NCBI GenBank assembly: GCA_964017155.1
Contig: OZ024865.1
Location: forward strand, 10,911,509 to 10,975,508
From: Oasisia sp. SBJ-2009
Taxonomy: Eukaryota; Annelida; Polychaeta; Sabellida; Siboglinidae
Length of the DNA: 64,000 nucleotides
Direction of reading: 5' to 3'
The notes beneath the pieces are model-generated. The model did no database searches, was not told where the DNA came from, and saw only the letters and a program-made list of their open reading frames with translations. Positions 7,080 to 56,504 of the stretch are shown in pieces. Each line of letters starts with the position of its first letter. The stretch's first letter is position 1. Made by a program: the position numbers and the translations under genes.

Positions 7080-7535
7080 TAGTCCTGGCTCTGCCATATA
7101 GGCCCGTAAAAATGTTGAGGTAAACGCAGTTTTGCTTTGATGTGTCATCTACATACCATGTCTTTCAACAACCCAGGAGGTGCTTTTTGAAAATCCGTGA
7201 CATAAGGTCACTGGAGCGTGAAATCCAAAATGGCAGCCGCTGATCAGGTTTTCATCTATAATTTTGGATCTAGAAGGGCTAGATAGTCAAACTTGGTGTC
7301 GATTCCGCCTAATATTGACATTACCGATACGCCTAACCCATTTTACGATTTGACGCCATGGTTGATGATCATTCCAACATGGCCGCTCATCCACGACGAC
7401 TGTCGACTGCAGAAACACAATAAGCCGTAACTTCCGATCGAAATGAACTCGAATCTTGGTTTGATGTCCCTCTCGATAGCTACGAGGATCCCCAATTAAA
7501 TACATTTCCTTTCATGACCTTTCGAGTTGACTATA
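7080..7535 (+). repeat. E1 left arm, outer part
   Basis: Reverse complement of about 18180-18632 with scattered substitutions. It contains the terminal TIR, the GAAATCCAAAATGGC block and the first half of the arm subunit (CTGTCGACTGCAGAAACAC). It ends at GACTATA, the LINE target site. Confidence 0.85.
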
Positions 7536-7750
7536 ATAATAATAATTTTATTTAAACACCTCATTTCTTTACGTAGTACATTCAGGGGTGTGTACAAGTA
7601 AAATAGCTTAAAAATGTAATATATTACAACAGTTCAGCAAATTATAAGTACACATTTTGATAAAATAATGCACACAAAAAGTAAAAAACTAAATGTACGC
7701 TCATTTAAAATATAAAGTGTTCATTTTCTTTCTAAAATGTCTAGAATAAA

Positions 7751-9073
7751 TTACGAAGATGCCTGTTTAAAGAAAAACGTTTTTAGGTCTTTCTTAAAAT
7801 GTCCGGAATCTTGTTGTTTCCTGAGATAAAATGGAAGCGAGTTCCACAGTGCAGGTCCCGCACATGAAAAGGCTCGTCGCCCTAAACGTTTTAGGTTGAC
7901 CCTTGGAACGCAGACGAGAGCCTGGTCAGCCGAACGCAGACTGCGACGGGGAACGTACGGCGTGATTCGATCAGCCAGATAGCGCGGAATGTTAGCATGC
8001 ACGGCGCTGTGCATAAAAGTCAGCAGTTTGAAATAAATACGCTGTGTCACGGGTAGCCAGTGCAACTCTCGCAGAGCCTCCGTCATGCTGTGTTGGTCAC
8101 GGCGATGTAAACGTAGGATGACGCGCGCTGCTGAACGCTGGACCATTTCAAGTCTATACAACAGCGTTCCAGTAATGCCGTACAGGGCAGCATTACCAAA
8201 ATCAAGTCGCGATGTGACTAACGCATGAACAAGTGTCTTGCATGCTCGAAGAGTTAGCGCAGATCGTATTTGCGCTATACAACGAAGTTGGGCGTAGGCA
8301 GTCGGGCAGGTACGGCTTACGTGTGCGGTCATCGACAAAGTTGAATCGAGGTGCACGCCAAGGTCGCGAATGTTGGCCGAAGTGGTAACGTTGCGTCCAC
8401 ATATGTCGATGATAAGAGGACGTGGCTGCGGAGTGCGGTGATTCGGTGTGGTAAAAAGAATTGTCTCTGGTTTTGCTTCGTTCAAAAGTAGGTAGCGCGA
8501 CGCTAGCCAAGCTTTCACGTCGATGACACACCGGGATATCTGGTCGGCTGCAGACGCCGAATCGTTAGGTGGAAAGTCAACATAGAGTTGTGTGTCGTCA
8601 GCGTACACATGGTAACGAACACCATGCGTTTCGAAGATATATGACAGGCCAGCGCAGTAAACAGTGAAAAGTAGAGGGCCCAACACACTGCCCTGTGGAA
8701 CTCCGTGTCGCAGTCGGGTTCTGTGAGACGAGTGACCGTCGACACTGACGCATTGTGTGCGGTCGGTAAGATACGATGCGAGCCAGCAGAGTGCGTCGCC
8801 TCGTACCCCGATTCGAGGTAGATATATTAACAGTATGTCATGGTCGATAGTGTCAAACGCAGCGCTGAGGTCAAGCAGTACAGGTACTACGTGCTTATGC
8901 ATATCCAGAGATCGCAAAATGTCGTCCTAAATACACACAATTGCGGTTTCGACACTGTGTGCCCGGCGGTAGGCACTCTGAAATGGATCTTCGAGGTCGT
9001 TGCTTTGCAGATGTAGACGCAGTTTGGCGGAGACGTGACGTTCGAGTAATTTGGATGCATAAGGAAGGTTAGA
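7751..9073 (-). pseudogene. LINE reverse transcriptase, C-terminal part
   Basis: This part runs from the fingers region (DPFQSAYR) through the palm motifs AAFDTIDHDILL, HGVPQGSVLGPLLF and YADDTQLY, to the thumb and the C-terminal motif RAFSCAGPALWNSLP typical of L2/CR1-type LINEs. The catalytic YADD aspartates are present. One in-frame stop lies near 8925, just before DDILRSLDMHK, so this copy could not make the whole protein even before the gypsy insertion. The reading frame joins exactly to 14340-14672 once the gypsy element and one copy of its 4-bp target duplication are removed. Confidence 0.9.
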
Positions 9074-9197
9074 TGTAACCCTGGTGGATACTGATAGTCA
9101 CCAGAGGGCACTGTAGTATAAGGCCACGCCCAGCTGGTTGAACTGGACAACTGCTGAGGCGCAGTTTGCCCTGGGCCAGCGACTGGTCAACAACTAC
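9074..9197 (+). repeat. 5' LTR remnant of gypsy-1
   Basis: Matches the first 124 bp of the 3' LTR at 14006 with two or three substitutions. The break is followed by a few bases that repeat the local ACAACTAC motif, then gag resumes at about 9205. This looks like end-joining with templated filler. Confidence 0.9.
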
Positions 9198-9204
9198 TAA
9201 CAAC

Positions 9205-9923
9205 TACTTTTGTCTCCCTTTGGGAAAAACCGTAGTAATGCTCAACTAAAGAGGGAGTTGTATGATAGAAGACAGAGAAACAGGGAAAGTGTTAGGGAAT
9301 TATCTCGGGCCCTGTTAGAAATCTCTGAAGGTATAGCTGATACATTGCAGAGTAAGAACGAAATGGTAATTGAAGTGTTCTGCGAGAACCTGGTGGATGT
9401 CCACATAAAGAGAGAGATGAAACGATTGGTAAGAGGTCAATCGACGATTTCCTTTAGTGCCTTGAGAGCTGAAGCTATTCGTCTCGAGGAAGACGGAATG
9501 GGTAGTTCTTATGAGAATGCATGTTTCCGGGGAATTCAGGAGCCTCACCATACCCCAGGCGAACCTAGTCCACTGGACCGAATCGCAGCACAATTAGAAC
9601 TACTTGCTACAACTCAGTCGGAAATAGTTTCTTTGTTACGATCACAACAACAGGCGCCAGTGGGTGTGGTGAATCCTGATAGACCGGAGCCCAGTAGCGG
9701 CGGCGCGGTTTATTGTGAGTACTGTAGCCGAAGGGGTCACACCTTCGTGAGGTGCTGGAAGCGCGCTAGTGATAGGTGTCGTAATGGGGAACAATCAACC
9801 GGTCGCGAATACATGGGTCATTCGCATGATAGCACAGCGACTAATGCAATGCAGGGTAGCCAGGTAGTACATCCTAGGTCAGAACCAGCCTCCTTGACAT
9901 CCCGTGATTACTTGGGAAACTAA
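9205..9923 (+). pseudogene. gag: gypsy-1 gag, N-terminus deleted
   Basis: This is the structural polyprotein that would form the capsid and bind element RNA. It aligns throughout with residues from about 100 onward of the gag part of gypsy-2 (30334 onward). A retroviral-type zinc knuckle of the form C-x2-C-x4-H-x4-C is present near 9715-9757 (CEYCSRRGHTFVRC). The region before it (ELLATTQSEIVSLL) is probably helical. There is no genuine start codon because the front of the gene was removed together with most of the 5' LTR. It ends at the stop near 9921, and protease follows in the -1 frame. Confidence 0.85.
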
Positions 9924-9979
9924 GTAGCCCTGCTGCTGAGCGTCAGGCAGACAGGCGTAACAACTTAGACGGTGTACTA

Positions 9980-10648
9980 GTGGACGCAATTGTGGGGAAA
10001 ACACCAATACTTTCTTGTGATATAGCAAATCAACCAACTAACATGGTGCTAGACATGGGCTCAGAGGTGACAATTATACAGGAGTGGTGGTTTGACGAAT
10101 ATTTAAAGCCGTCAATTGGTTGCTTAAGCGATGCGTCTTCGTGGTTGCGGTTCGAAGCTGCCAACTCGTTAGGATTCCCATATGTGGGATACTTTATTGC
10201 GGATGTAAATGTATTAGGAACCATTGTGAAAGATAAGGGCATTTTAGTGCAGAAAGATCCACCAGGGCTTACTCACCACCACCCAACGTCTGGGATATTG
10301 GGAATGAATGTTTTAGGCGACATCCCCGACATAAGGGATCTACTTCTTACCATTAAGACCCATGATGCAAACCCAAAACATGATATAGAGGGTAGAAATG
10401 TGACACTTGTAGGTGACCGTAATGTAAACATTCCAGCGTGGTCTTCTTGTAATGTATTAGTGTCAGGTCCCCGGTGTACTGGTAATGCGATGGTAGAACC
10501 CCTAGACGGGACCCTAAAGGGAGGGTTGCTACTGCAAACTGGACTTGTGGGTTCCATAGAGGGACGTTTTGAAGTAACTATCATTAATCCAACTTCGGAT
10601 GAGATATGGCTACGTCCCCCTTCCCCGTTGGAAGGATATATGCCGTAG
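9980..10648 (+). pseudogene. pro: gypsy-1 aspartic protease region
   Basis: Retropepsin-like domain that would cut the polyprotein. The active-site loop reads VLDMGSEVTII where retropepsins have D-T/S-G, so the second residue is changed. The second hallmark, GILGMNVLG, fits the family's ILG motif. The frame is -1 relative to gag and remains open upstream of 9980, overlapping the gag end, so a gag-pro frameshift is possible. It ends at 10648, where the polymerase continues in yet another frame after a C-rich tract; that second shift may be mutational. Confidence 0.75.
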
Positions 10649-12567
10649 ACATCATTGACAGGAATCCGGAACACATAGTTGAGTTCCAAGAGTTAGATGA
10701 CGGTTTGCGAGTGACCATGGAACCTCGAAAGGTGACAGCTTTCACGAGACGGATAAGCAACCAGTACAATCAAGACACCCAGGCTACAGACCCTCAGGAA
10801 CAGGAATGGATGGAAAGGGTAAACATTGGTACTATTCCGTCCGCTTATCAGCATCAATTAGACGAGTTATTGAGGAGCCATCAACAAGTATTCGCTCAGG
10901 ATGATAATGACGTGGGGTTAACTCAGACGGTTAAACACCGCATTTACACCACAGACGACAGCCCTGCTAAGGCGGCTTACCGTTGTATTCCTCCGCCTCA
11001 ATTTGATAAAGTCAAAACACACATTACGGATCTCTTACACAAAGGGATAATCAAACCCAGTCAGTCTGAGTTCGCGAGTCCTATCGTTATTTGTCGGAAG
11101 AAGAACGGTAAGATTAGGATGTGTGTGGATTACCGTAGGTTGAATACCAAGACTAGGAAAGACGCGTTTCCCCTTCCCCGAGTAGATGAAATGTTTGATC
11201 ATCTAGCAGGAGCGAAGTATTTCTCGACGGTCGATTTGAAATCAGCGTATAATCAGGTGGAAATAGACGAGGTCGATCAACACAAGACCTCATTCACGAC
11301 ACCCATGGGGTTGTATGAGTACCGTAAAATGCCATACGGTCTCTGCAATTCACCTGCAACCTTCCAGAGGTTGATGCACATTGTGTTCAGAGAAGAGATG
11401 AATGAAAAGGTGTTGATTTTCTTGGATGATATCGTCATCTACTCTTCTACCATCGAAGAACATTTCGAACGTTTAGAGTTAGTGTTCCAGCGATTGGCAT
11501 CTCACGGTCTGAAGATTGAACCTAGTAAATGTTTTCTATTTCAGGAATCGGTTTCTTATTTAGGCCAAATAATATCTACCGATGGGATTTCTGCCGATCC
11601 GGAGAAAGTGGATGCAATTAATGAATGGCCGGTACCGGCGAATGCGAAAGAACTCAAAGTCTTCTTAGGAACCGCAGGATATCACCGACGTTACATTCAT
11701 CATTTGTCACAGTTGGCATCTCCTCTGTATGAATTGGTGAATCAGGATCCCAACAAAGGAAAGAAGAGAAAACCAGGAAGAAAGTGGAATTCAGCCACTC
11801 CAGTACCATTTGTATGGAACCGAGAACACCAAGAAGCGTTTGATGCATTGAAAAATGCTCTGACTACAGCACCCGTCTTGGGATTTGCCGACTTCACAAC
11901 ACCATTCATTTTGGAGACAGACGCTAGCCACCAAGGACTAGGAGCGCTACTACTACAGGAACAGGAAGGGCGAACACGAGTTATAGCTTATGCTAGCCGT
12001 AGTCTCAGGGGTCCCGAGAAGAGCCGCACGGCTTACAGTTCCATGAAATTAGAACTACTGGCAGTGAAATGGGCGGTTACGGAGAAATTCCGTGATTACT
12101 TGTTGGCCATTCCGTTTGTTGTATATACAGATAATAATCCGTTGTCGTATATTCAGACGTCGGCAAAGTTAACTGCGGCCGAACACCACTGGCAAGCCGA
12201 GCTAGCCAGATTCAATTTCAGCATTCGGTATCGTCCTGGGCGACTTAATGCATCGGCAGATGGCCTGAGCAGGAAACCACACCTGACTCCAACCATGGAG
12301 TTCACAGTCATCGGAGAAGAAGAGATAGCGGATATCCTGCAAGTAACGGTTTTGCCGTGCGACTTACGCCAGAAGTTACTCAAAGGAACGGTCCGGGCCA
12401 CCACCGCTCACATACGTGACATACTGGAAAGCGTAGAGTCACCGATTCTACCTAGTTTTAGGACGGACGAGATCCAGGAAGCACAACGGACTGATCCGGT
12501 GTTGGGCCGAATCTGGCATTACATCGATCGAGGTCGAGACGCGACACGTGGAGAAAGACAGAAATAA
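10606..12567 (+). pseudogene. pol: gypsy-1 reverse transcriptase and RNase H
   Basis: Copies element RNA to DNA and degrades the RNA strand. Reverse transcriptase motifs appear in order: MCVDYRRLN, FSTVDLKSAYNQ, MPYGLCNSPATFQRL and the catalytic FLDDIVIYS. RNase H follows with ETDASHQGLGALL, SRSL and YTDNNPL, then the linker RPGRLNASADGLSR. The frame ends at a TAA (12565-12567) where gypsy-2 has a sense codon (GAA), so it is a nonsense mutation. The catalytic residues look intact, but the polyprotein cannot extend into integrase. Confidence 0.9.
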
Positions 12568-13933
12568 CAGCCAGCAGTAGCGAAACTGCTATTACAACGG
12601 AACCGCCTACATATCTGTTCTGGCCGATTGTGCAGAACAATGACAGATCCCATGAGTGGAGAGAAAGTAAACCAGTTGTTGCTTCCAAGTTCCATGAGGA
12701 AGGAAGTATTAGAGGAATTACATGATCGGATCGGACATAGATAGGGTCGAGAAATTAGTGCGGGCAAGGTTCTATTGGCCGAATTTACGCTCAGATATCC
12801 ATAATTGGATTGCCAGGTGTGGACGTTGTAATCTAGCAAAGATGCCACATTTTAAAGTGCGGACTCCTATGCATAGCATTGTCGCCAAGGAACCGTTAGA
12901 AGTAGTAGCAATTGACTTCACGATACTGGAACCCGCTAGTAACGGAATTGAGAATGTACTGGTCATGACCGATGTGTACAGTAAATTCACAATAACAGTG
13001 CCGACTAGAAACCAAACAGCTCAGACAGTGGCCAAAGCACTAGTACGTGAATGGTTTCTGCGCTACGGAGTGCCCTTCCGGATACACTCAGACCAAGGAA
13101 GAAGTTTTGATGCTAAAATCGTCACGGAGTTATACAAGATCTACGCTTTCGACAAATCGCGCACAACGCCATATCATCCCATGGGAAACGGGCAATACGA
13201 AAGATATAACCGGACGATGCACGGATTGTTACGCACACTGACACCAGCTCAGAAGTCCAAGTGGCCAGACCACCTACCGGAACTTACCTATGCGTACAAT
13301 GTAACACCTCATGCTGCCACGGGATTTAGTCCTTTCTACTTGATGTTCGGTCGTGTTCCACGCTTGCCAATCGATATCAGATTGCACAACGACGAGACAC
13401 TCCAGTCTCAAACGGTTCGTGGGACCAACATGAACTGGGTAGATTACCATCAATCTAAGTTGAAAAGCGCTTATGCTAAAGCGACGGAACAACTGGAGTT
13501 AGACAGAGTAAATCGAAAGGCGACTTATGAGAAGCGTACGAGGGAAGATACACTACAAATTGGAGACCATGTACACTTACGCAATAGGGTGAAAGGACGT
13601 AACACAATTGGGGATGCCTGGGACCCGACAGTGTGTGTAGTGTCGGAACAGATGGAGGACACTTACGTTGTCGTACCCGAGAGGGGACATAAGAAACGCG
13701 TGATTAATCGTAAAGACTTACGGGTTTGTGTTCCTGAGACAGTGAACAGGCAAAGTAGATTAGGCCCCGAAAGTGAGGTAACAGTCCCATTGTACGAAGT
13801 GACAATTACGTCTCACCCGAACAATAGCGAGGCAGCTAACCCTCCAGCACCACCTCTACGTCGGTCAACGAGACGTAATGCGGGTTATCACAGTAACCCA
13901 CATAGAGAACCGAGATCGGTATTAGATAACTAA
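12568..13933 (+). pseudogene. int: gypsy-1 integrase
   Basis: The DDE integrase would join element DNA to the host. Compared with gypsy-2, 8 bp are missing near 12736, inside the HHCC zinc finger, so the reading frame is broken. The open part starts at 12722. The core keeps its acidic triad (IDFT, HSDQG, GQYERYN), followed by the GPY-like C-terminal region and a basic tail with SAP-rich RRSTRRN. The frame stops at 13933, 59 bp before the polypurine tract. Confidence 0.9.
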
Positions 13934-13992
13934 TTTCACCTATAAGGTTTCAATTTAAGTTCTATTCATTAGCCGCGGTCGGCTAAATGTTT

Positions 13993-14005
13993 AAGTTGGG
14001 GGACA
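13993..14005 (+). promoter_or_regulatory. Polypurine tract of gypsy-1
   Basis: AAGTTGGGGGACA lies immediately before the 3' LTR. This is where plus-strand DNA synthesis is primed in LTR elements. The same string, with adjoining sequence, is preserved in the gypsy 3' scrap at 46.6 kb. Confidence 0.8.
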
Positions 14006-14335
14006 TGTAACCCTGGTGGATACTGATAGTCGCCAGAGGGCACTGTAGTATAAGGCCACGCCCAGCTGGTTGAGCTGGACAACTGCTGAGGCGCAGTTTG
14101 CCCTGGGCCAGCGACTGGTCAACAACTACATCTAGCGACCGGTCAACAGTTGTACCCAGTAACCCAGTATATAACCAGCGGCCTGATAAGCGGGCTTGCC
14201 AGAAATAGGCGCCGGCTCCGCCAAGTGGTGCGAGAGCGAGTTATTAGAGTTACAGGAGCGTGCCGCCCTCTGGGAGCGTATTCTTTCTCAATAAACGTAT
14301 TGAATACCAAAAGACCGTCGTTCGACTAGCTTACA
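14006..14335 (+). repeat. 3' LTR of gypsy-1
   Basis: 330 bp, TGTAAC...TTACA. Contains a possible TATA box (AGTATATAACC) and AATAAA near its end (about 14290). It is nearly identical to the 5' LTR of gypsy-2 at 29925-30254, which has the same length. Confidence 0.95.
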
Positions 14336-14339
14336 TAGA

Positions 14340-14672
14340 GATAGGTCGGTAGCTGGAGTAGTCGTCGGCGGAAAGACCTGAGCGTTCTAGAAGAGGCGTG
14401 ATGACAGCGTGTTTCATACTTGCCGGAACAGTGGATGATTCGTAAGATAGGTTGATGATACTCCTGAGAATCGGCGCCAAAATGGAGGTATTAGCTTTCA
14501 GGATAGCGGAAGGCAGTGGATCGATATTGGACGTCTTTATCTTGCCATTTTGAATAAGTGACGTTACTTCTTCGAGCGAAGCCGGCTGAAACGCCAGCAG
14601 TGGCGACAAAATAACACGTGCATGCGCGTTATAGACGTTCGCTGATGGCATCGGGATTTGGCAGCGGATCGA
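14340..14672 (-). pseudogene. LINE reverse transcriptase, N-terminal part
   Basis: The minus strand encodes the start of the reverse transcriptase domain, with DPLPSAILK, a helical block, then AVITPLLE and DDYSSYRPIS. This is the first half of the protein whose remainder is at 7751-9073. It is cut by 5' truncation at 14672, where the E1 arm resumes. Confidence 0.88.
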
Positions 14673-14679
14673 GACTATA

Positions 14680-15450
14680 TATGTCAAAAGTCAAGTTAAT
14701 GGGTTAAAAGTCAACATTTAAAAATAATATCTGGTCACGAAATGGGATATGACTGGTATACACATGAGCTAGATGTCGTATCTCAGTTGCTATCATCATA
14801 GTTCTGCTGATATAAAGTCAAATTGATGAGATTATATTAACTTTTAAAGGTTGTAAGCGCCATGTCAAGGCCAAAAGGTCGCTCATCCATCCATGAAGCC
14901 CGCTACACTGCGCAATTGATTTATTTGATGATTTGTGTTGGTCTTAGATCCCTATGTGCCCCATGGTGGTTTACATCCATGTGATGGCATGTATCACCAT
15001 GGTATCAATTCCGCCTAAAATTGACATTCCCGACACGCCTGACCTATCGATTTTACGATTTGACGCCATATTTGATGATAAATCCAACATGGCCGTTCAT
15101 CCACGACGACTGTCGACTGCAGAAACACAATAAGCCGTAACTCTCGGTCGAAATGAACTAGAAACTGGATATTTATGTCCCTCTCGATTATTGTGATAAT
15201 CCCCAATCAAATGCATATTATTTCGTGACCTTTCACGTTGACCATATAGGTCATAGGTAAAGCTAATGGGATAAAATAAACATTTTAAACCATATCTTGT
15301 CACGAAACATGATATAACTGGCATATACGTGAACTAGAGGTCTTATCTCAGTTGATATCATCATAGTTCTGCTGAGATAAAGTCAAATAGAGGAGAGTGT
15401 TAACTTTTTGAAGATACAACTAAGTGCTATGCCAAGATCAAAGATCAAAT
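14680..15450 (+). repeat. E1 left arm, inner part
   Basis: 14680-14945 is the reverse complement of 17905-18180. 15000-15450 is a second tandem copy of the arm subunit (again with GACGACTGTCGACTGCAG and the TTATCTCAGTTGATATCATC block). A short (CCATGG-containing) spacer at 14945-15000 separates the copies. Confidence 0.85.
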
Positions 15451-15669
15451 GTGCTTAACTATATGCATAGATTTAACATAAAAAAACAAGAATGGAAGTG
15501 ATGGTCAATTCATGATATCTGACATCGGTCACACTGTTTATTTTAACATTATTATGACAAACAAAAACTATTGTAATCTTTCAAGTAATTTATAACAATA
15601 AGCACCTGTAATGTACTGTATATCTAGCTAGCGTGTACACGTACAACACACTTTCCATCCCACATTTAG

Positions 15670-17374
15670 CTAACAACGATTCTGACAGTCTTGAACTTGT
15701 GATTTGTGGCAATAAAAGACACACATCACCACACATTTTCAGCACGGGCACTGCACATTACCACATTTGCACATGGATAGCATATTAGTAGACAGGGAGC
15801 TATGACATATCAAAAGTTTGAGGGTGCTTCTGTCACGTTCCCACCCACTCTGACAAAACCCTAGGCGTCTTCATTCACTGGCTATAATCCCTTGAAAAAC
15901 AATATAATACTCTGGTGATGTGTCTACGTACAACACTCGATGCGACGGCATTTTGGTTGTGGCATTCGGAGCAGAGACACTGGTGTGGCCCTGGAGATGC
16001 AATTAGTCAAACGTCTTTCTTTGCCTATCGCTTAGATCTTTCACCAGCCCAACCCAGTAAGAGGTAATCTTAGCTCTGCTCTATCGTCACACTCAGTCAG
16101 ATAGAAAATGGTATTGCACTGCTTCGCTGCATGCTTATTGCCAATTCTGCTGGTGACATCGTTTCCAGTAAATGCTTGAACCTTCTCAAGAACAAGGCTG
16201 CGATGCTCGCCCACTCGCGATGTAGGGGAAGGTTGGGTTACTGCCAAACCTTTGGCATACATTCCAACAGGGTCCCAACAGGGTCACTGTTTTAACCATT
16301 CATGAAATAGGTCTCCAGTAGTTGTGTTGTGTATCGTCAGACACTACAGAACCACGTTATAATTATACTCTTTCCTTACACCAACATCATAGGTGAGATA
16401 TGCCTCCAGTTGAGCGACGTGTGACAGAGATAAAGTCGCCATCAAACAGGTGGCTGGTGAGGAGGTGGTAGTCATGCGAAAATACTTCAGCGAGAGTTAT
16501 TCCACGTACACGGGCGATCTCAATATCCCGCTCGGCAGATCCGAGCAGTTTAGGTATGGTGGTGTAGGATGCTCTATTATCATTGGTGTAAATTACCGAC
16601 AGTATCACACTTCGGTAGGCTACACCTGTGTGTTGTTACTGCAAGCTTCTTTGTCTTCAGAACCAGCTCTCTCGTATGTATCTTCTCTCCATTCTCGAAC
16701 ACATCCATTATTTCATCATTGATTAAATGATCGGTAGCGAATTTATGCAATCTGACGCCAGAGGCTTTGGTAATGAAGGAATTTGCTACAGCTCGCACGA
16801 AGTCAAGAAGACGGGAAACATTGGCATCAAACATAACGGCCTTGATGCTCCTGAGTTCATGGTACATGATGGTCTTATGAGGCTCCATCATCCGCTCATT
16901 TCTGAGCTTACGGCAGTTGTTCTGTTTAAGCAGGATCGCATGGGAGATTAGCTCAAACTCCACCACAACTGCGAACATTCGTATCTGGCCGACGATGCCT
17001 CCCTGGCTCTTTGATGCCCGCTGGATGGACTGCTCCAACTTTATATCTAATTCGACATAGTTGAAGTTGTCCCTCCAGTCTTGCACTACACATATAGCGT
17101 TCTGAGTCTTCCGCCTCTAACAACTGAGTTTTCCTAACGTAGAACGATCCCTACCAATTGACTCCATCGAACTCCTGAATAATTAGCGCAAAATATTTGC
17201 ATACAGGATACATGTAATGGCCACCACCATCTCTCCCGATCTGAGATGGTGTGGTTGGAATAGATTGTACATTTTCTTGATGTTTATCTTGAATGCAGCC
17301 ATATCAAATTTAACTTGATACTCAATTGGGAAAGTGTTGTACTTGATAAGCAAGGTCTGTGTGAGAGAAAACAA
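15670..17374 (-). pseudogene. E1 gene: XPG/FEN-like nuclease protein of a DNA transposon, decayed
   Basis: Pieces of one protein follow each other on the minus strand in several frames. 17374-17183 holds a block with LRSGEMVVAITC. 17086-16580 holds SIQRASKSQGGIVGQ followed by a helical block ending DHLINDEIMDVFENG. 16608-16387 holds LGSAERDIEIARVRG and LFDGD. 16262-16041 holds FTGNDVTSRIGNKHAAKQ, like the G-x-D helix-hairpin-helix region of XPG/FEN nucleases. 15783-15670 has a Cys-rich tail (CKCGNVQCPC, then CVFYC and DCQNRC). I know this arrangement (SGGI block, TGxD motif, CXC-like tail) from repeated uncharacterised proteins in invertebrate genomes. The copy has many stops and shifts. The nuclease role and Academ link are inference. 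Confidence 0.6.
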
Positions 17375-17904
17375 CTGTGGAACGTGCTACTTCGGCATTC
17401 TTCCCGCCCATATGCACCTGCAGGTATATTATAATAGATCATCATTGAGTAGACTGTCGTTGGCGAGGACAAGACCTCTCAACTGAAAATATCAGTCACC
17501 TTGAAAATCATCAGCATGATTTGCATTGATCTTTAGTGGTGATTTTTGGTGATAATTGAAATCAGGACTCGCATCACGAAGAGCTCTGCTTCAAATGGGA
17601 CATCGTCCAGGTCACTACCTCTGATGTAGCAGCCAAAGCATCGTGGTAGAATCTTCGCATAGTGAACCACTCCAAACATGCCACAGATGTCCACCACCAA
17701 TGTGTCTGATTCAGAATATCTGCAACCGTGTGAAACACGCCGTCATCTCAGAACACGGGCATCATCGTCTGAGACAGCGGACATTAGAAGGTTTCTCGCA
17801 ATGGTATACTTTTTCACAGGGTTTGGGAGAGCTGGCGGGAACCCCCACACACCAAAATAACATCTACAATGGTGATAAATGCCATCACATGGACGTTATA
17901 GGGC

Positions 17905-18632
17905 ACATACGGAAGAACAAACACAAATCACTAAGTAAATCAACTGCGCAGTGTAGCGGGCTTCGTGAAGGGATGAGCGACCTTTTGTCCTTGACATAGC
18001 GTTTACAACCTTTAAAAGTTAATATAATCTAATCAATTTGACTTTATCTTAGCAGAACTATGATGATAGCAACTGAGATACCACCTCTAGCTCATGTATA
18101 TACCAGTTATATCCCGTTTCCTGACCAGATATGATTTTTAAATGTTGATTTTTACCCATTAACTTGACCTTTGACATATATAGTCAACTCGAAAGGTCAG
18201 GAAAGGAAATGTATTTGATTGGGGATCCTTATAACCATCGAAAGGGACATCAAATCCAGTTTCTAGCTCATTTCGATCGAAAGTTACGGCTTATTGTGTT
18301 TCTGCAGTCGACAGTCGTCATGGATGAGCGGCTATGTTGGATTTATCATCAAATATGGCGTTAAATCGTAAAATGGATGAGTTAGGCGTGTGGGGAATGT
18401 CAATTTTAGGCGGGATCGATACCAAGTTTGGCTATCTAGTCCTTCTAGATCCAACGTTTTAGATGAACACCTGGTCAGCGGCGGCCATTTTGGATTTCAC
18501 GCTCCAGTGACCAGGGATTTTCAAAAAGCACCTCCTGGATTGTTGAAAGACATGGTATGTAGAATACAAATCAAAAGAAAAACTGCGTTTACCTCAACAT
18601 TTTTACGGGCCTATATGGCAGAGCCAGGACTA
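17905..18632 (-). repeat. E1 right arm
   Basis: Single copy of the arm subunit plus the terminal block, inverted relative to the left arm. It contains the uninterrupted sequence TGACATATATAGTCAACTCG, which is the empty form of the site the LINE used in the left arm. Confidence 0.85.
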
Positions 18633-20325: not shown

Positions 20326-20414
<89 letters not shown>

Positions 20415-22859: not shown

Positions 22860-24065
22860 TCAACAACCAGGCACACTACTGTCGGCAACACTTCTCGCTT
22901 TCCTGTGTGGAAATTTCTTTCCACACCATTGAGGGGTAATCGAAAATTCTACGTTCCACTTGGAGGAGCGAAACCAGTATACATCATTTTCTTTTGCGCC
23001 CTTGCAAAACCCAGTTACTTGGCTCAGCAATGCTTTGAATATATTCACTTCATCCCGGAAGTCGTCCGGCTCTTCAGCTATGCGCCGCCAAAGCGTCTTA
23101 TTAAAGTGATTGTAAAGTACATATTCCGCTTGGTTGTAACGCTTGAAATTGTTTACGTAGGTCGAGTCTAACTGCTTGTCTTTATATTTATATCTCATGA
23201 CATTACGTTTCATATAAAGGATATCTTCTATCTTCCAACACATGAGTCGTCGAAACAGCACCAACGACTCATCGTAATACTCCGCGATCATAACGAGGCT
23301 GAACCGTCGCTGCAGAGCGTCGATCCAGTGCCGGATGTAGGTGGCGTTGTTCGTTTGGTCGGTCGTGTTCACGTGGAAGCCAGTCGGCAATCCGAGTTCG
23401 AACGCCAGAGTATTGTGCGTGAAGCTAAAGCTGCCCATACACTTCTTGAAGTGGTTGTAATAGGGAGATGTATACAACGTCTCGTACTTAGGGATGTCTC
23501 GTAGATACTCCATCAGGGGATCGGCAAAGTTAGCTAGATTCGGTAACCGTTTTCGTATTGAATAGAAGTTAAACGCGGATTTCATCCGACTAAACGGATC
23601 CCGGATGCTTGTGATGTAAACAGTGTCGTGTGGCATGACACGTGATATGACGTCATCGTTGAAGACAAAATGGTGCAAAATAACGTTAAGCGGAGTCTTT
23701 TTCGGACTGAAACAGCGCGCCTCCAACGGGTAAGGGTAACAGAGGGTGTATCGACCGGGGCGAGGTTGAGAGATCGAGAGCTTATTGCTTCGACCAAACC
23801 TGTAGAGGATAGATTTAGTTGTTTCGGTAGCACACTTGTGGGTCTTCAAGTACACAACGTTCACTCGCTGTCTCTTGCAGACCGGCGGACGATGCACAAT
23901 GATGGGGACGGTGCCAACGCGGTCCATCAGTGGCAAATTGTCGGTGACGTCATATGACTTAAGCAGTCCCTGGTATTGGCTGCAGAAGATGATCGCTACA
24001 ATGACAGCTCCAATGACAGCGACGCACAGAAGCCGAATCTGTAACAGAAGTATGCTTGTCTGCAT
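22860..24065 (-). CDS. Galactose-3-O-sulfotransferase-like enzyme (intact)
   Basis: A 401-residue type II Golgi membrane enzyme of the Gal3ST/galactosylceramide sulfotransferase family. It would move sulfate from PAPS to the 3-OH of galactose on glycolipids or glycans. A cytoplasmic stub of a few residues precedes one membrane segment (residues about 11-28). The 5'-phosphosulfate loop is VYLKTHKCATETT (about 71-83), with CAT replacing the more usual TGS. The 3'-phosphate site is TSIRDPFSRMKSAFNFY (about 152-168). HHFVFND and several N-glycosylation sequons (NTT, NAT, NKT) fit the family. The ATG is directly followed by the signal anchor and the length is normal. No intron is apparent. Copies at 48-49 kb and 60.1 kb show recent duplication. 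The exact acceptor cannot be told from sequence. Confidence 0.9.
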   Translation of the reverse strand: MQTSILLLQIRLLCVAVIGAVIVAIIFCSQYQGLLKSYDVTDNLPLMDRVGTVPIIVHRPPVCKRQRVNVVYLKTHKCATETTKSILYRFGRSNKLSISQPRPGRYTLCYPYPLEARCFSPKKTPLNVILHHFVFNDDVISRVMPHDTVYITSIRDPFSRMKSAFNFYSIRKRLPNLANFADPLMEYLRDIPKYETLYTSPYYNHFKKCMGSFSFTHNTLAFELGLPTGFHVNTTDQTNNATYIRHWIDALQRRFSLVMIAEYYDESLVLFRRLMCWKIEDILYMKRNVMRYKYKDKQLDSTYVNNFKRYNQAEYVLYNHFNKTLWRRIAEEPDDFRDEVNIFKALLSQVTGFCKGAKENDVYWFRSSKWNVEFSITPQWCGKKFPHRKARSVADSSVPGC

Positions 24066-27699: not shown

Positions 27700-28326
27700 T
27701 GAATGAATGAATGAAAGAATGAATGAAAGAACGAACGAATGAATGAATGAATGTATGAATGAATGAACGAACGAACGAACGAACGAACGAACGAACGAAC
27801 GAACGAACGAACGAACGAACGAACGAACGAACGAACGAACGAACGAACGAACGAACGAACGAACGAACGAACGAACGAACGAACGAACGAACGAACGAAC
27901 GAACGAACGAACGAACGAACGAACGAACGAACGAACGAACGAACGAACGAACGAACGAACGAACGAACGAACGAACGAACGAACGAACGAACGAACGAAC
28001 GAACGAACGAACGAACGAACGAACGAACGAACGAACGAACGAACGAACGAACGAACGAACGAACGAACGAACGAACGAACGAACGAACGAACGAACGAAC
28101 GAACGAACGAACGAACGAACGAACGAACGAACGAACGAACGAACGAACGAACGAACGAACGAACGAACGAACGAACGAACGAACGAACGAACGAACGAAC
28201 GAACGAACGAACGAACGAACGAACGAACGAACGAACGAATTCATTCATTCATTCATTCATTCATTCAATCATTCATTCATTCATTCATTCATTCATTCAT
28301 TCATTCATTCATTCATACATTCATTC
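27700..28326. repeat. Two-part tetranucleotide array: (GAAT/GAAC)n then (ATTC)n
   Basis: A short GAAT part is followed by about 117 uninterrupted copies of GAAC (27768-28238), a GAATTC centre and about 22 copies of ATTC. The GAAT and ATTC parts are inverted complements around the centre. Related but shorter AATG arrays occupy the same place next to LINE-B at 43.0 and 57.1 kb. The long frames reading NERT or SFVR are repeat artefacts. Confidence 0.97.
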
Positions 28327-30274: not shown

Positions 30275-30333
30275 TCGGCGACGGAAGCTCCCAGGGGAGC
30301 CGATGAAGCATGGCGACAGCACGATAAGACCGG

Positions 30334-32699: not shown

Positions 32700-32703
<4 letters not shown>
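30334..32703 (+). pseudogene. gypsy-2 gag fused in frame to integrase
   Basis: One uninterrupted frame of about 790 codons plus an artefactual tail from the (TA)n tract (nominal stop at 32787). Gag starts MMEEDKLARLEEM, has a coiled-coil-like front and ends with the zinc knuckle CECCSRRGHTFARC (about residues 267-280). Right after, at about 31300, it jumps to the RNase H/integrase linker (YRPGRLNASGDGLSG). Integrase then follows with an intact HHCC finger (HDRMGH and CGRC) and the triad IDFT, HSDQG, GQCERYN. The junction has 3-bp microhomology (GGT) with the parent sequences seen in gypsy-1. The catalytic polymerase is missing, so it is non-autonomous, but the fused frame is strikingly free of stops. 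Confidence 0.85.
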
Positions 32704-32771
<68 letters not shown>

Positions 32772-32865
32772 TGTTTCCACGCGATAACTTTGTCAAGTGT
32801 AAATATGTGTGTGTGTATGTGGGTATTTGTGAATGTGTGCATGTGTGCATGTGTGTTTGTTTGTT

Positions 32866-38275: not shown

Positions 38276-39055
38276 ATGTTCAATTACAGTTTTAATAATA
38301 ATATTATTATTGTTGTTGTCGTTGTTGCGGTTGCTAGTGTTACTGTTGTTGTATAATTAGTATTACTAACTCAAATATTCGCATCAGTTTTCTCATGCAC
38401 GACGCCCACCGCATGTTTCATAGGATGATATAAAAAAATCCTTTGTCTTAAAATTTCGTTCATTCACTAAATGTAAATAATATTTCATTTTTATTAAATC
38501 CATTATTATTTAAAGTGTTGTTTTGTGACAATGTATATCCCTGAGTGAGTGCCTCCTTGTTGCGTTCATCTTTCGATTTCTTAAATATATTCGAATATTC
38601 AATTCACCTTAATCTTAAAGATTAGAAACATAATTATGCATCATTTATTTTATTAAAACATCCAATCTTGTAGTCACTTTTACCCAACATTAGAAGTTAA
38701 TGAGGGGTGACCTTCGGTTAAACTAATATCATTTGCCAAAAGAAACCTTCCATTAATTGTACTTTATTGGTTAACGTGTCAAATTCAGGGCAGGGCAAAC
38801 AGATCAGCTGCGTAGACGTCTCAGCAATACATTTTATTAGGTGTACTCACTTCGCCTTCTGGGTAATTTCCTTGGTATTGAAATGTCAAATATAACTTGA
38901 ACGTTTCAGTGTTATGCAAGTGTTTTTCTAGATGAACACACGATAACAAGCCTGTTACTATGATAACGTGCCCTTTACTATGATAACAAACGTCTTTTTA
39001 TGACAACATGCCTCTTACTATGACAACATGCTACTTACTATAACAACAAGCCTCG

Positions 39056-40222: not shown

Positions 40223-42258
<2,036 letters not shown>

Positions 42259-46232: not shown

Positions 46233-46236
46233 TTTA

Positions 46237-46320
46237 GATCTTCTTTTGACAGAGTTGTGTTTTTAAGAATTGGGTTTATATGTGCGGAATTGGGTTTATA
46301 TGTGCAGAATTGGGTTTATA
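46237..46320 (-). repeat. L2-LINE scrap with a short tandem triplication
   Basis: Matches about 37918-37970 of the L2-like LINE (GATCTTCTTTTGACAGAGTT). Its last bases, AATTGGGTTTATATGTGC, are then repeated three times in tandem (about 20-23 bp unit). Confidence 0.75.
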
Positions 46321-46626
46321 TGTGATTAATCGTAAAGACTTGCGGGTTTGTGTTCCTGAGAGAATGAACAGGCAGAGTAGATTAGGCCACGAGAGTGAGG
46401 TAACAGTCCAATTGTACGAAGTGACAATTACGTCTCACCCGAACAATAGCGAGGCAGTTAACCCTTCAGCACCACCTCTACGTCGGTCAACGAGACGTAA
46501 TGCCGGTCATCACAGTAACCCACATAGAGAAACGAGATCGGTATTAGATCTGTAATTTCACCTATAAGGTTTCAAAAAGTTCTATTCATTAGCCGCGGTC
46601 GGCTAAATTGTTTAAGTTGGGGGACA
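46321..46626 (+). mobile_element. gypsy 3' scrap: integrase tail and polypurine tract
   Basis: Encodes the last 75 or so integrase residues (VINRKDLRVCVPE to RRSTRRNAG) and continues through the non-coding tail to the GTTGGGGGACA polypurine tract. The LTR does not follow; GGTAACTCATG replaces TGTAACC. It corresponds to the part missing from gypsy-2. Confidence 0.85.
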
Positions 46627-46826
46627 GGTAACTCATGTTGATTGATACAAAGTGTATGTTGTGTGCATTTATCTTATGATTGTGTAAGTTGTGCAGATAG
46701 TCACCCTGTTTGTAACCTTGGATTTACATTGTTTACTCTGTAGTACCAATTACCTGCTTGCACTTATTATGAGGCAAGATCGGTAACAAAGATATACCCC
46801 TAATACACAATTTATTGAATGTGTTG
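46627..46826. other. Spacer, no gene seen
   Basis: Unassigned sequence between the gypsy scrap and the TIR element. Confidence 0.4.
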
Positions 46827-48003
46827 CATGTTGCTAAGAAGGCCCACATATGGCCTTAAACTAATCGTGTTAAATGAGCAACGAAGCGTGATAATGTCGC
46901 AATGAGTTTAACTACAGGTGGGGTGATGAACCAGTGAAATACACTGGGGATAAATGGTTTGAGTCAAATATGACTTACTAACAATACATTGACTTCATCA
47001 ATTTAGATCAACTATTTAAATCATTAGAACATTTTTATAATTGGTATCATATCGTTAAGAAACATGTTTGTCTGCACGTAGTCTAAGGTACCTATCCTGA
47101 ATATGTTACATCATCCATTATTATTAATTGGTATTTGACAGTCACAGTGTATTCATCGTCCTGTAAGCAGTAGTCTCTCCTAAGAATGAGTTTCTGACAA
47201 CGCCCTCTTCCGAGTAAAATGACAACTTCACCTGCACCATGTCAGATAAGTCTACAAAATCACTAGAACTCAAATTTACATATAAATGAATAGATGCAAA
47301 CAAATGTTATATGTTCTTATGTATTTGTCAGTATTGTCATTTCATTGTTTCAATTTGTACACATGTCTTATAGATAGATTTACACATAACATAGAGACAA
47401 ACATCGTATTGAATGAATACAAATATAATAATGTATAATAATCCGAGTGGCTCCTGTGATAGCGACTTTTGAGTCTTAGCAGGAGTCACTGACCCCAATT
47501 TCATATGTATTCTTAATTACTTATGGTGACATTTGTTCATGTGCGTATTATTGCTATTATTTAATGTAATTGTTTTGGGGTCAGAAATAAACATCTTGTT
47601 CTTGTTCTTGTTCTTGTTCCAACTTGATCACGTGGGCCGCCAGTTCAGTCTACACATATAAACCCTATATATCACGCAGCGGTCACGCACTGTTAACATT
47701 TAGGCCTAGGCCCCACAGGTGGGTTAACAAGCCGACCCATTTATTGTCCTGTAACTAGTTCACAAAGATACCCAGCAACACATGGGCATTGTCGTTTATA
47801 GGAGTACATTGTATTGTGCCATTTTCATATACCAACATACATATAGAAAGTTTGCTACAACGAAACAGTAATGTGAACATACTTTGGTTTCAAACATTTA
47901 ACTATCTTAAGTGCCCACTAACTGTGGTGACAGCTTTGTCACGCTTCGTTGCTCATTTAACACTATTAGTCTAAGGCTATATTTGGGCCTTCGAAGAAAC
48001 ATG
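46827..48003. mobile_element. TIR element adjoining sulfotransferase copy 2
   Basis: Inverted ends of about 60 bp: CATGTTGCTAAGAAGGCCC on the left and, complemented, CATGTTTCTTCGAAGGCCC on the right. Both continue into TGTTAAATGAGCAACGAAGC. The 1.18-kb body has no recognisable transposase, so it is probably non-autonomous. The right end runs into the sulfotransferase coding region. No target duplication can be defined because the other half of that gene is absent. Confidence 0.75.
47440..47625 (+). mobile_element. Retroelement 3' end with (CTTGTT)n tail
   Basis: GTTTTGGGGTCAGAAATAAA is followed by CATCTTGTTCTTGTTCTTG. A polyadenylation-like signal plus short hexamer tail is typical of a LINE or SINE 3' end. 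It lies inside the TIR element. No protein part is present. Confidence 0.5.
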
Positions 48004-49056
48004 AAACCAGTATACATCATTTTCTTTTTTTGCGCCTTTGCAAAACCCAGTTGCTTGGCTCAGCAATGCTTTGAATTTATTTAGTTCATCCCGGAAGTCG
48101 TCCGGCTCTTCAGCTATGCGCCGCCAAAGCGTCTTATTAAAGTGACTGTAAAGTACATATTCTGGATGGTTGTAACGCTTGAAATTGTTTACATAGGTCG
48201 AGTCGATCTGTTTGTCTTGATGGTTATAACTATGGAGATTACGTTTCATATAAAGGATTTCTTCTATCTTCCAACACACGAGTCGTCGAAACAGCACCAA
48301 CGACTCATCGTAATACTCCGCGATGATAACGGGGCTGAACCGACGCTGCAGAGCGTCGATCCAGTGCCGGATGTAGGTGGCGTTGTTCGTTTGGTCGGTC
48401 GTGTTCACATGGAAGCCAGTCGGTATTCCGAGTTCGAACGCCAGAGTATTGTGTGTGAAGCTAAATCTGCCCATACAGTAGTGCTTGTAATAGGGAGATG
48501 TATACATCGTCTCGTACATAGGGATTTCTCGTAGATACTCCATCAGGGGATCGGCAAAGTTAGCTAGATTCGGGAACCGGTTTCGTATTGAATAGTAGTT
48601 AAACGCGGATTTCATCCGACTGAATGGATCCCGGATGCTCGTGATGTAAACAGTGTCGTGTGGCATGACACGTGCTATGAAGTCTTCGTTGAAGACAAAA
48701 TGGTGCAAAATAACGTTAAGCGGAGTCGTGTTCGGGTTGAAACAGCGCGCCTCCAACGGGTAAGGGTAACAGAGGGTGTATCGACCGGGGCGAGGGTGAT
48801 GGATCGAGAGCTTATTGCGTCGAGCAAACCTGTAGAGGATAATTACAGTTGTTGAGGTAGCACATTTGTGGGTCTTCACGTACACAACGTTCACTCGCTG
48901 TCTCTTGCAGACCGGCGGACGATGCACCATAATGGGGACGGTGCCAACAGGGAGCAGTCCCTGGTATTGGCTGCAGAAGATGATCGCTCCAACGACAGCT
49001 CCAACGACAGCGACGCACAGAAGCCGAATCTGTAACAGAAGCATGCTTGTCTTCAT
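47977..49056 (-). CDS. Galactose-3-O-sulfotransferase-like enzyme, copy 2 (altered C-terminus)
   Basis: 359-residue frame closely similar to the enzyme at 22860-24065. The signal anchor (LLLQIRLLCVAVVGAVVGAI), the PAPS loop VYVKTHKCATSTT and the 3'-phosphate site TSIRDPFSRMKSAFNYY are kept. Differences: 14 stem residues after QYQGLL are deleted, and one residue pair is lost before CMGRF. The last residues after NDVYWF come from the TIR element (HVSSKAQI, stop), replacing about 30 residues of copy 1. The catalytic domain is otherwise open, so it could be made. Whether it folds without the C-terminal Cys-containing tail is unknown. Confidence 0.75.
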   Translation of the reverse strand: MKTSMLLLQIRLLCVAVVGAVVGAIIFCSQYQGLLPVGTVPIMVHRPPVCKRQRVNVVYVKTHKCATSTTVIILYRFARRNKLSIHHPRPGRYTLCYPYPLEARCFNPNTTPLNVILHHFVFNEDFIARVMPHDTVYITSIRDPFSRMKSAFNYYSIRNRFPNLANFADPLMEYLREIPMYETMYTSPYYKHYCMGRFSFTHNTLAFELGIPTGFHVNTTDQTNNATYIRHWIDALQRRFSPVIIAEYYDESLVLFRRLVCWKIEEILYMKRNLHSYNHQDKQIDSTYVNNFKRYNHPEYVLYSHFNKTLWRRIAEEPDDFRDELNKFKALLSQATGFCKGAKKENDVYWFHVSSKAQI

Positions 49057-49239
49057 GCCTTATTTTTTAGTTGTATGCAGGTTAATTAATAGTCACACTA
49101 TAATGGTGTTTAGATGTATTTATTGCCGCGCCCCACGAATGAGTCTCCTCTGAGTCAGCGCAGAGAGTTAGGCATGAGAACCGAGTACGGTTTATAACCT
49201 AAATAAATTAATCCATTTAATTGATTTAGTGTATACGTA

Positions 49240-49334
49240 CACACACAAACACACACACACGCACACGCACACGCACACGCACACGCACACGCACACGCAC
49301 ACGCACACGCACACGCACACGCACACGCACACGC

Positions 49335-49406
<72 letters not shown>
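49240..49406. repeat. (ACACGC)n then (AC)n microsatellite
   Basis: About 14 hexamer copies of ACACGC followed by about 33 AC dinucleotides. The sharp change from hexamer to dinucleotide is clean. Confidence 0.95.
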
Positions 49407-49407
<1 letters not shown>

Positions 49408-49628
49408 ATTACAGTACGATTCTTCTTCTTCTTCATCTTATTGTAGCTAAGCACTCTGTAGTAGCCACGTGCATACGTGGCTACAGTATTGTCGAGCTTG
49501 GTCGGTCGCAAGTAGTGGGTGGTGTTGCGCGGGGGTGGGGGATAATAAACCATAAATGTGTACTTATGTAGGCATTGAGTTCAAAAGCCTTTTCAATGAG
49601 TTGACTGATTGTTTGCTAACTTATTGTT

Positions 49629-52399: not shown

Positions 52400-53314
52400 T
52401 TGTTGTGTGCATTTGTTCCATGATTGGATGGCGCTCGGAAAGAAGGAGTGTTTGTAGGGTTCGATGCGGGTGAATGGTTGTAAGTAGCGGTGTGTGTTGC
52501 TTCTGGGGCGTGTAGGAGCGGCTGTTAGTGCGGATGTTGTTACGTCCACCAGTTGTTTGTAATGCGATACAACATTATAGTAGGGTCTAGAATTGCACTT
52601 TCGTGACCATTCTCTGGCTACTAAGGTTTGACGATTGATTTGACTTCTATGGACCATTTAAAAAAGATTTAGCTTCCCGGTCCCTCTAAAAAAATGCTGG
52701 CATTTCCCGCCAGAGGGCCAAATCCAAAATGGCCGCTGGCACTATTTCGAAAAAATTACAATTGAACCAAAGCGCCAAAAATCATGAATGAAGACACGTT
52801 TTCGGGTAAGTCTTCCACGAGGATTCCGATTCTGGCATTAGTTTGACGCTGTGACATCTTGTTGACCCATAAATCCAAGATGGACGCCACCTGGTAGAAC
52901 GAAAACGTAACTTTTAAACCAGAACACCAAGAAGCATGTATGAAGACACCTTTTCGGGTACGTCGACCACGAGTATTCCGATTCTGACATCAGTTTGACG
53001 TAATGACATCATTATGACCCAGACATCCAAGATGGCCGCCATAGCTGGTAGAACGAAATCGTAACTTTTAAACCAGAACATCTAGAAGCATGTATGAAGA
53101 GACTTTTTCTGGTACAACGACCTCGAAAATTCAGATTCTGACATCAGTTTGAAGTTATGACATCATTTTGACCCAGAAATCCAAGATGGATGTCATCCGG
53201 TCAAAGATGGCCGCCATCCCGTAGAGCGAAAACTTAACTTTTAAACGAGAAGGTAAGATGTGGGTTTTTGGAGTTTGCATTTATACTTGTAAACTATGTT
53301 CAGTGAAAAATATT

Positions 53315-53830
53315 TAACGCGCTTCAGGGACGGTGGCACATTATATACGCCAAGTAGTTGACGCGGAGGCAGTGTTGGCGCAGGCTTTCTGTATCTGGAG
53401 GGAGGCAGATGAATGATTTGTTCTTCATTCTCTTCCACTTCGCGACATGGTCCTCAGCTGTGGTGCTACTCTTGTTGTCGCCGTAAATGACATGTCCTGT
53501 GAACTCGAATAGCTGCTCTACCACCTGCTCCTCAATGTCAAGGCTCTCTCCGCACCACGACAGCTGCCGTCGCGCCACATGGTTCTTCGCTACTTGGTCA
53601 AACACCATATTCTTACCCTTACCATAGAAGCCTGAGTTGGCATCACAGTGCAGCTGCACAATACAGCCTGCCATCTTGTCAGCTATCAGGCCTCGGCAGA
53701 AGATCGTTTCCTGCTTTCTCTTGATACAAATCATATCTGCCAACTGCTGCCAGAGGATTGCTGCCGTGACATAGGCATCAATGACAACAGGGCAACCTGA
53801 CTCGCGCAAAACTGCGTAAGCGGAAAAGGG
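53315..53830 (-). pseudogene. Inverted second copy of the E2 gene 3' end
   Basis: Minus strand encodes the same C-terminal region as 55130-55640: CPVVIDAYVTAAILWQQ, ETIFCRGLIADKMAGC, NSGFYGKGKNMVFDQVAKNH, WCGESLDIEE and KWKRMKNKSFI. It lacks four residues over the TG-C of the nuclease motif and reads DA-Y where the other arm has the acidic DTDAY. It has no front part. It lies in the left arm, facing the main gene, and is part of the element's inverted repeat. Confidence 0.75.
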
Positions 53831-54079
53831 GAAAGTGATGGGCTATGCTGGCAGCTCTCCCTGTTGATCAAGTCGCCTATCTTCGAACTGACTTCACTCG
53901 ATCCATCCAGGCAACCCCTACTCCAAAATGGCCTGGGACATGTAGAGTGATTGTACCATGAACAAGGTCAGTACAATGAAGCCTGACTGGCTCACCATCC
54001 TCCAGAATGAGAATTAGCTGCTGGTGCACTCCAGAAATGTAATGTGAACAATGTGGCCCGGATCAGAACGGCTCACAAC

Positions 54080-55660
54080 GACCTGGTCAATCGAAAAGAT
54101 GCAAAGAGGAAGCACATAGAATGCGGCCCAAAACGGATGCGATAAGATGAATAGTGCGTGCAGGACCTGGTCACTTGCATGCAAGAATTCGACTACCTCC
54201 CGTTCGACCCGGCCTCACCAACCCTCCGCACCCTACAGTCAGCAATGTCTGCATCTGGTAAGCTCGTTGCGGACTTCACCTCAGCGGCTGCTGCGGGGGT
54301 AGAAACATTGACCGGTTTCTTGCGAGAACGGGTGTTCAGTAAGAATACCTCCCTCAATGCATTCGTTCCTCTGAGCAAACGGTTGACGTTTGCCAAGGAA
54401 TCAAGCGCGAAGAAGCCAGGGGAGGAACTCACGGCGACAGAGATGGCGCAGACTGCTCTTAAGGCAGTGATCAACCTGGTTGAGATCAGTCAATGTGTGG
54501 ACCTGCCCCAGTTGCTGGAACATCGCGTTGTCGAGGAGTGTATGACCTTGTTCAACTCCAACGACACATACAGGAAAACGCAAAAGAGCAAGCTCATCCA
54601 GAAGCTCTTTCTGCAATGTGTAGACCTACAGGAATCCTACGTCGCTGTTGTCGACATGGACATGATCTGGTGTATGGCAACTCCAACAGCAGAAGATCGG
54701 CAGACGGAAGATGGCACCCCATATAACTGGTCAGACTACGTGGACAAGGTGTCATCTATTATCCTTGCCCGCCATGGCGATGCTGACCGTATCATATGTG
54801 TGACCGACCCGTACGACGCAGCACACTCGAGTATAGACGACGAGCGATATCTGCGGGTGCAGTGTAAGGCACATGTCCCCAGCACCTATATAAACTTGGC
54901 AGACCCTTCCCCTGTGCCAGAGTGTTCAAAACGCTGTGGAGTCAGCAACAAGGGGCAGCTATAAAATTGGTATTCAACTACCTGACCGACCTAGCACAGA
55001 GTGTTGATGCTAAGACTATCTACTCAGTTGGCCACCACAGCACCAACGTGTCAATACAGCAACCAATGCAGAACCGCAGCCTTGACCAGTCTCAGGCTGA
55101 CACTGTCCCCTTTTCCGTTTTCGCAGTTCTGTGCAAGTCAGGCTGCACTGGTCCTGTTGTCATTGATGTCGTTGATACAGATGCCTATGTCGTGGCAGCA
55201 GTCCTCTGACATCAGCTGGCAGGTATGATCCGTATCAAGATAAAGCAGGAGACGATCTTCTGCCGAGGCCTGATAGCTGACGAGATGGCAGGCTGTATTG
55301 TGCAGCTGCATTGTATGACTGGCCGTGATGTCAACTCAGGCTTCTACAGTAAGGGTAAGAAGTTGGTGTTTGACCAAGTGGCGAAGAACCATGTGGCGCG
55401 ACGGCGGATGTCGTGGTGCGGAGAGAGCCTTGACCTTGAGGAGTAGGTGGTAGAGCAGTTCACACGACATGTCATCTACGGCGACAACACCATAGCTGAG
55501 GCCCGTACCGCGAAGTGGAAGAGAATGAATAACAAATCATTCATCCATCCAGATGCAGATAGCCAGCACCAACACTGCCTCCGCAACTACTTGGCGTATC
55601 GAATGTGCCACTATGGCTGGCACCTGGTGGGTGATCGCTGTCGCCCTGTAAATATCAATG
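54080..55660 (+). pseudogene. E2 gene: XPG/FEN-like nuclease protein, broken
   Basis: Coding-like from about 54095 (KDAKRKHIECGPKRMR) in changing frames. 54158-54964 is open for 268 codons: a helical block (FDPASPTLRTLQSAM, NTSLNAFVPLSKRLTF), LVEISQCVDLPQLLEHRVV, then WSDYVDKVSSIILARHGDADRI. After a frameshift near 54920 come LTDLAQSVDAKTIYSVG and VVIDVVDTDAYVVAAVL. After a stop comes ETIFCRGLIADEMAGC and the nuclease motif MTGRDVNSGFYSKGKK, where R stands at the family's usual C. A TAG at 55444 replaces the CAG seen in the other arm. DTD plus TG-D...G-GK fits an XPG/FEN-like fold. The front (zinc finger or transposase region) is missing. Confidence 0.65.
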
Positions 55661-56504
55661 TAATTTGGGTTTCGACGTTAACCTTTTTTTCACTGAACAT
55701 AGTTTACTAGTATTGTTTCTCTACTTATTTACATACTATATAAATGCAAACTCCAAAAACCCACATCTTCCCTTCTCGTTCAAAAGTTATGTTTTCGCTC
55801 TACGGGATGGCGGCCATCTTTGACCGGATGGCAACCATCTTGGATTTCTGGGTCAAAATGATGTCATAACTTCAAACTGATGTTAGAATCGGAATCATCG
55901 AGGTAGTTGTACCCGGAAAAGTCTCTTCATACATGCTTCTTGGTGTTATGGTTTAAAAGTTACGTTTTCGTTTACCAGCTATGGCAGTGATCTTGTATTT
56001 CTGGGTCATAATGATGTCATTGTGTCAAATTGATGTCAGATTCGGAATTCTCGTGGAAGACTTACCCGAAAAAATTTCTTCGTACGTGATTTTTGGCGCT
56101 TTGGTTCAATTGTAAATTTTTCAAAATGGTGCCAGCGGCCATTTTGGATTTGGCTCTCTGGCGGAAAATGCCAGCATTTTTGAGAGGGACCGGGGGGCTA
56201 AATATTTTTAAATGGTCCATTGAAGTCAAATCAATCGTCAAACCTTAGTAGCCAGAGAATGGTCACGAAAGTGCAATTCTAGACCCTACCAAGGGACATC
56301 CAGTTCAAGCTTTCGAGCATGGTGGTCACACTGCTGCGTCGACGACGGTAGTTGCTCTTCACGAAGTGTGCAGCCTGTCGCTGCACGTTCTCCACCGATT
56401 TGACGTTTTTTCTCTGTGGGCGGGTCCCATACCGTCGAGGCATACTCCACGATCGGCCTGACAAACGTTTGGTAGCATAGCGTTTTGATAGCCTCGGGAC
56501 ATCT

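Follow-up and report, generated by a model that had tools for sequence, protein, structure and literature searches.

E1 and E2, two elements in a 64,000-nucleotide stretch of the siboglinid annelid Oasisia sp. SBJ-2009 (contig OZ024865.1, positions 10,911,509 to 10,975,508; hereafter the window), are very probably broken copies of two families within one superfamily of DNA transposons with terminal inverted repeats (TIRs) that fits AcademX, and whose whole relatives, at ~970 amino acids (aa), join a DUF6589-related N-terminal half, which is probably the transposase, to an XPG/FEN-type nuclease and a Cys-rich tail. The E1 and E2 proteins share ancestry, and both families have amplified, with TIRs that begin TAGT and target-site duplications (TSDs) of 3–4 bp. 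Their nuclease part has a predicted fold with conserved acidic motifs.

Searching the source assembly (764 Mb, 33 contigs) gave at least 41 matches to E2 ends (40 of 294 candidates scored) and at least 40 to E1 ends (40 of 505 scored). Twenty loci were retrieved for the E1 family, and 20 plus one more for the E2 family, with both ends located in 14 of 20 and 18 of 21 loci, respectively. Identical 3-bp flanks border 13 of 15 E1 end pairs (two right ends occur at one locus), and 12 of 17 distinct E2 flank pairs carry repeats, 3 bp long in 10 and 4 bp long in 2; the 4-bp pairs, from L010 and L011, seem to represent a single site duplicated with inversion. Mismatched control pairs showed 3-bp identity in 8/210 (E1) and 6/272 (E2) cases. 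The gene recurs at many genome positions, each time enclosed by these TIRs and with TSDs at the flanks of most copies. The E2 termini had initially been taken as GTAGGG with a 2-bp TA duplication, an assignment dropped because placing TA inside the TIR yields duplications of 3–4 bp.

The E1 copy in the window is interrupted by nested insertions, and its parts are as follows.
7080–18632: E1 as a whole, 4409 bp after subtraction of the nested insert and one TSD copy.
7080–7535, plus strand: outer portion of the left arm; the TIR begins TAGTCCTGGC, with an inverted match to 18632–18179 (89% over 461 columns).
7536–14672, minus strand: long interspersed nuclear element (LINE), foreign to the transposon, 7137 bp, with TSD GACTATA at 7529–7535 and 14673–14679 and an RVT_1 match.
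9074–14335, plus strand: Gypsy-type element within the LINE, likewise foreign to the transposon, with TSD TAGA, recognised from its sequence and open reading frames (ORFs).
14673–15442, plus strand: inner portion of the left arm, in which the inverted right-end copy runs to ~15000, after which the family's own left arm is overlapped again.
15676–17844, minus strand: decayed gene, with the N-terminal half, remnants of the XPG-like half (FTGNDVTSRIG) and the Cys-rich tail, recognised by tblastn matches.
16214–16232: deletion point, by comparison with family loci, at which ~600 bp of nuclease core are gone.
17865–18632, minus strand: right arm and TIR, from inverted-repeat matches between the arms.
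Elsewhere in the window, an 819-aa open frame at 30328–32787 (plus strand) resembles the Gypsy polyprotein inside E1, is shorter than it and ends in a (TA)n repeat.

Fragments of the E1 gene match P0105 (79% identity over 160 columns by tblastn) and, in order, P0061, P0062 and P0077, with P0068 also used; the gene is interrupted by stops and frameshifts. Fourteen loci with both flanks of the deletion point hold ~560 bp or more in between. P0123, considered as sharing this deletion, was discarded, as those 14 loci keep the DNA and the P0123 match shows no junction. A fuller relative at C14:13244183–13249938 has arms 78–80% identical to those of E1, the whole nuclease part and a few frame breaks. 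The leftmost 777 bp of the window copy match the right end of the E1 family; a 117-bp segment within them occurs once each in 15 of 20 other E1 loci and was not found in 5.

E2 was rearranged on a larger scale, its left ~1.26 kb being an inverted copy of the right end that includes the 3′ half of the gene.
52578–56289: E2 as a whole.
52578–53285, plus strand: left arm of tandem subunits of 152–154 bp; the TIR begins TAGTAGGGTC.
53324–53842, minus strand: inverted duplicate of the gene's 3′ part, with an open frame of 172 aa.
53832–53850: fold-back junction between inverted piece and gene, identical in 15 of 21 other E2 loci.
53843–55650, plus strand: gene whose N-terminal half is gone save for its end, followed by the XPG-like half, itself interrupted by stops and a frame break.
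55739–56289, minus strand: right arm and TIR, in which the last two bases are absent.
Because the same junction recurs in those 15 loci, 11 of which, representing 9 distinct sites, have TSDs of 3 or 4 bp, E2 belongs to a fold-back line in which one rearrangement arose once and its product then transposed repeatedly. The E1 left-end duplication is a smaller version of this event.

Some E2 copies have unusual surroundings. At L009 (G000:C2:50320890–50325196), the 198-bp flanks are mutual inverted copies at 197 of 198 bases, through insertion into a palindrome, a fold-back that included host DNA or an assembly error. The pairs L010/L011 (C11) and L014/L015 (C7) have the same flanks ~1.08 Mb and 237 kb apart, and the host DNA around them seems to have been duplicated, with inversion in L010/L011.

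These structures bear on an earlier note on this DNA, which had placed the ends of E1 correctly and recognised E2, whose left end genome copies move two bases outwards, from 52580 to 52578, and whose right end they show to have lost its final two bases. The TIRs, described there as short, are long: 87–89% identical across blocks of 461 and 332 bp in the inverted-repeat comparison of the E1 arms, 463–466 bp in the E2 relative L060 and ~1.26 kb in E2. Each element had been credited with one gene, yet neither gene is intact, ~600 bp of nuclease core being missing from E1 and the N-terminal half from E2. The described build of the arms from repeated subunits is borne out by the E2 units and by CCAAvATGG blocks, 10 of the window's 12 falling within arms whose limits had been fixed beforehand from repeats (0.61 expected if evenly spread). 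The quoted protein motifs, including the acidic DTD of E2 and the Cys-rich tail, are all present.

The TIRs of E1 and E2 do differ in sequence, as the same note had it in proposing at least two families, and both begin TAGT and carry a common 17-base site equally far from the terminus.
7221–7237, plus strand: subterminal site of E1, AAATCCAAAATGGCAGC, with GGCCGC in most copies.
52720–52736, plus strand: subterminal site of E2, AAATCCAAAATGGCCGC.
The majority termini of both families carry AAATCCAAAATGGCCGC, at base 143 in E1 and base 142 in E2, and a TCCAAvATGG core lies at 120–160 in 33 of 38 E1 termini and 35 of 41 E2 termini. Because it keeps its distance in two families, the site is a candidate for a retained binding site.

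The C-terminal half of the proteins resembles the FEN1, Exo1, XPG and XRN nucleases in predicted fold and in the order of its acidic motifs, in agreement with the XPG/FEN pattern read earlier from the letters. Identity to these enzymes is 9–18% (VIA rows), and, unlike them, the E1/E2 nuclease follows a transposon N-terminal half and precedes a Cys-rich tail in the same protein. Searches by sequence in the PDB returned no matches. More distant proteins of the superfamily lie at C6:36643585–36645792, C7:18239557–18242424 and C5:38771860–38774046 (G000), with 26%, 24% and 27% identity to P0065, respectively; they match without a stop in long open frames, and younger families of the superfamily may thus exist. 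Scans of viral contigs, prokaryote genome contigs and plasmids gave no relatives with DNA context.

For the N-terminal half, the link is to DUF6589 (Pfam PF20231). The E2-family protein P0036, 1 of 39 members, scores 16.2 bits, below the curated cut-off of 27 bits, and the six E1-family proteins scanned gave no match. When run against the host genome, the profile exceeded the cut-off at three places, one of them a C14 position that P0065 also matches. This locus, L062, represents a third family and consists of two frames of one gene split by a single stop: the first carries DUF6589 at 34.3 bits, and the second the XPG-like part ending in TGCDSVSQFSGHGKKK. With the stop read as X, L062 can be aligned to both family profiles, that of E1 at 99.9 (7e-31) and that of E2 at 98.6 (1e-15). 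Since one gene carries DUF6589 together with the XPG-like part and aligns to both profiles, DUF6589 probably forms the N-terminal domain in this superfamily, presumably that of the transposase. Residues D63, D314 and E318 (P0065 numbering) are conserved among just 5–13 sequences, and the half may be a DDE enzyme.

Several observations count against the AcademX assignment. Pfam scans gave no XPG match for any protein scanned, so the XPG claim draws on predicted folds and motif order, and the Foldseek E-values are marginal, P0036 reaching 1e-3 at best and P0065 1e-2. The DUF6589 cut-off was reached only in the third family and not by the scanned E1 or E2 proteins, and the N-terminal half yielded no confident structure model, leaving DDE catalysis presumptive. 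Neither window copy is intact or flanked by a TSD, and no 3–4 bp TSD was seen at L048, the inner pair of L053, L009, L019, L020, L025, L060 or the C14 copy.

The nuclease of AcademX is of XPG type, as is the one predicted for the E1 and E2 families. Their 3- and 4-bp TSDs match the lengths published for AcademX, an element group with a nuclease (PMC10045372); the comparison is with this description rather than with a reference protein or TIR, and the E2 line differs in being a fold-back derivative. The connection to Academ that had been proposed earlier is thereby supported, and none of the three refuting conditions set out with it held: TIRs and TSDs bound the genome copies, the protein contains an XPG/FEN-like region by predicted fold, and the gene travels together with the TIRs. 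By the same account, AcademH, the other branch of the Academ superfamily, has a helicase instead of a nuclease and TSDs of 9 or 10 bp, a difference in length tied to the two enzymes (PMC10045372); in E1 and E2, flank identity does not exceed 4 bp in any of the 32 end pairs. That a similar XPG nuclease sits on an unrelated transposase in a sister superfamily of Academ is unlikely: the comparison by description and an N-terminal kinship limited to DUF6589 leave room for it, whereas TSD length and nuclease both fit AcademX. Galileo and other foldback-like transposons share long, internally repeated TIRs with the present elements (PMC3573991); Galileo sits in the P superfamily, and the long arms of E2 instead contain part of the element's nuclease gene in inverted orientation.

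Presence in 15 of the 21 E2 loci examined could also make the fold-back layout the normal autonomous form of the E2 family. We consider this very unlikely, because the layout removes the N-terminal half that the relatives P0036 and P0004 have, and because L060 combines E2 ends and arms of 463–466 bp with that half and no inverted piece. To our knowledge, FEN/XPG enzymes are host genes in all eukaryotes, which would suit a host nuclease family merely situated within repeats; this is scarcely credible, since the copies with TSDs, which keep the gene within one set of TIRs at numerous positions, already contradict it. Under the AcademX assignment, E1 and E2 are best read as new families of the known Academ XPG branch, with the fold-back founder and the DUF6589 link as the new parts. 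A literature search at listing level, which supports no claim of absence, recognised no publication linking Academ to XPG, fold-back or DUF6589.

In a mechanism consistent with these data, the N-terminal half would bind the ends, cut and join, with the 17-base site ~142 bp in as its candidate contact, and the XPG part would trim flaps or the second strand and help set the 3–4 bp spacing. The non-autonomous E2 line would have been founded by one inverted end duplication, probably when repair of a break or an excision gap failed, and, having no N-terminal half, would presumably have to be mobilised in trans. It is also conceivable, if doubtful, that XPG-carrying transposons have DUF6589 as their transposase domain and that their transposition habitually yields inverted end duplications, caused by the flap-type nuclease acting on hairpin or flap intermediates; this idea builds on the right end being inverted onto the left in both window copies (777 bp in E1, ~1.26 kb in E2), with the E2 product going on to found a successful line.

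Other features of the window lie outside the two elements.
3259–4343, plus strand: overlapping frames, seven-helix receptor-like by eye.
4726–5222 and 38945–39054: two arrays built from 20-bp units that seem to be alike when opposite strands are compared (AGTAAGAGGCATGTTGTCAT and AACAAGCCTCTTACTATGAC).
22863–24065, minus strand: long frame matching Gal-3-O-sulfotransferase (PF06990, E 7e-58).
27701–28239: 539-bp array of the 4-bp unit GAAC, giving long meaningless ORFs from all six frames.
47977–49059, minus strand: long frame similar to that at 22863–24065 and, by eye, apparently its paralog.

Together, these data add families of transposons that carry an XPG nuclease of predicted structure and are backed by TSDs, and connect the unnamed Pfam family DUF6589 to a transposon gene. 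They also offer, in E2, a clear example of a line that was founded by the inverted duplication of half a coding region and then spread, and make it testable why nuclease and helicase branches of transposons leave TSDs of different length.
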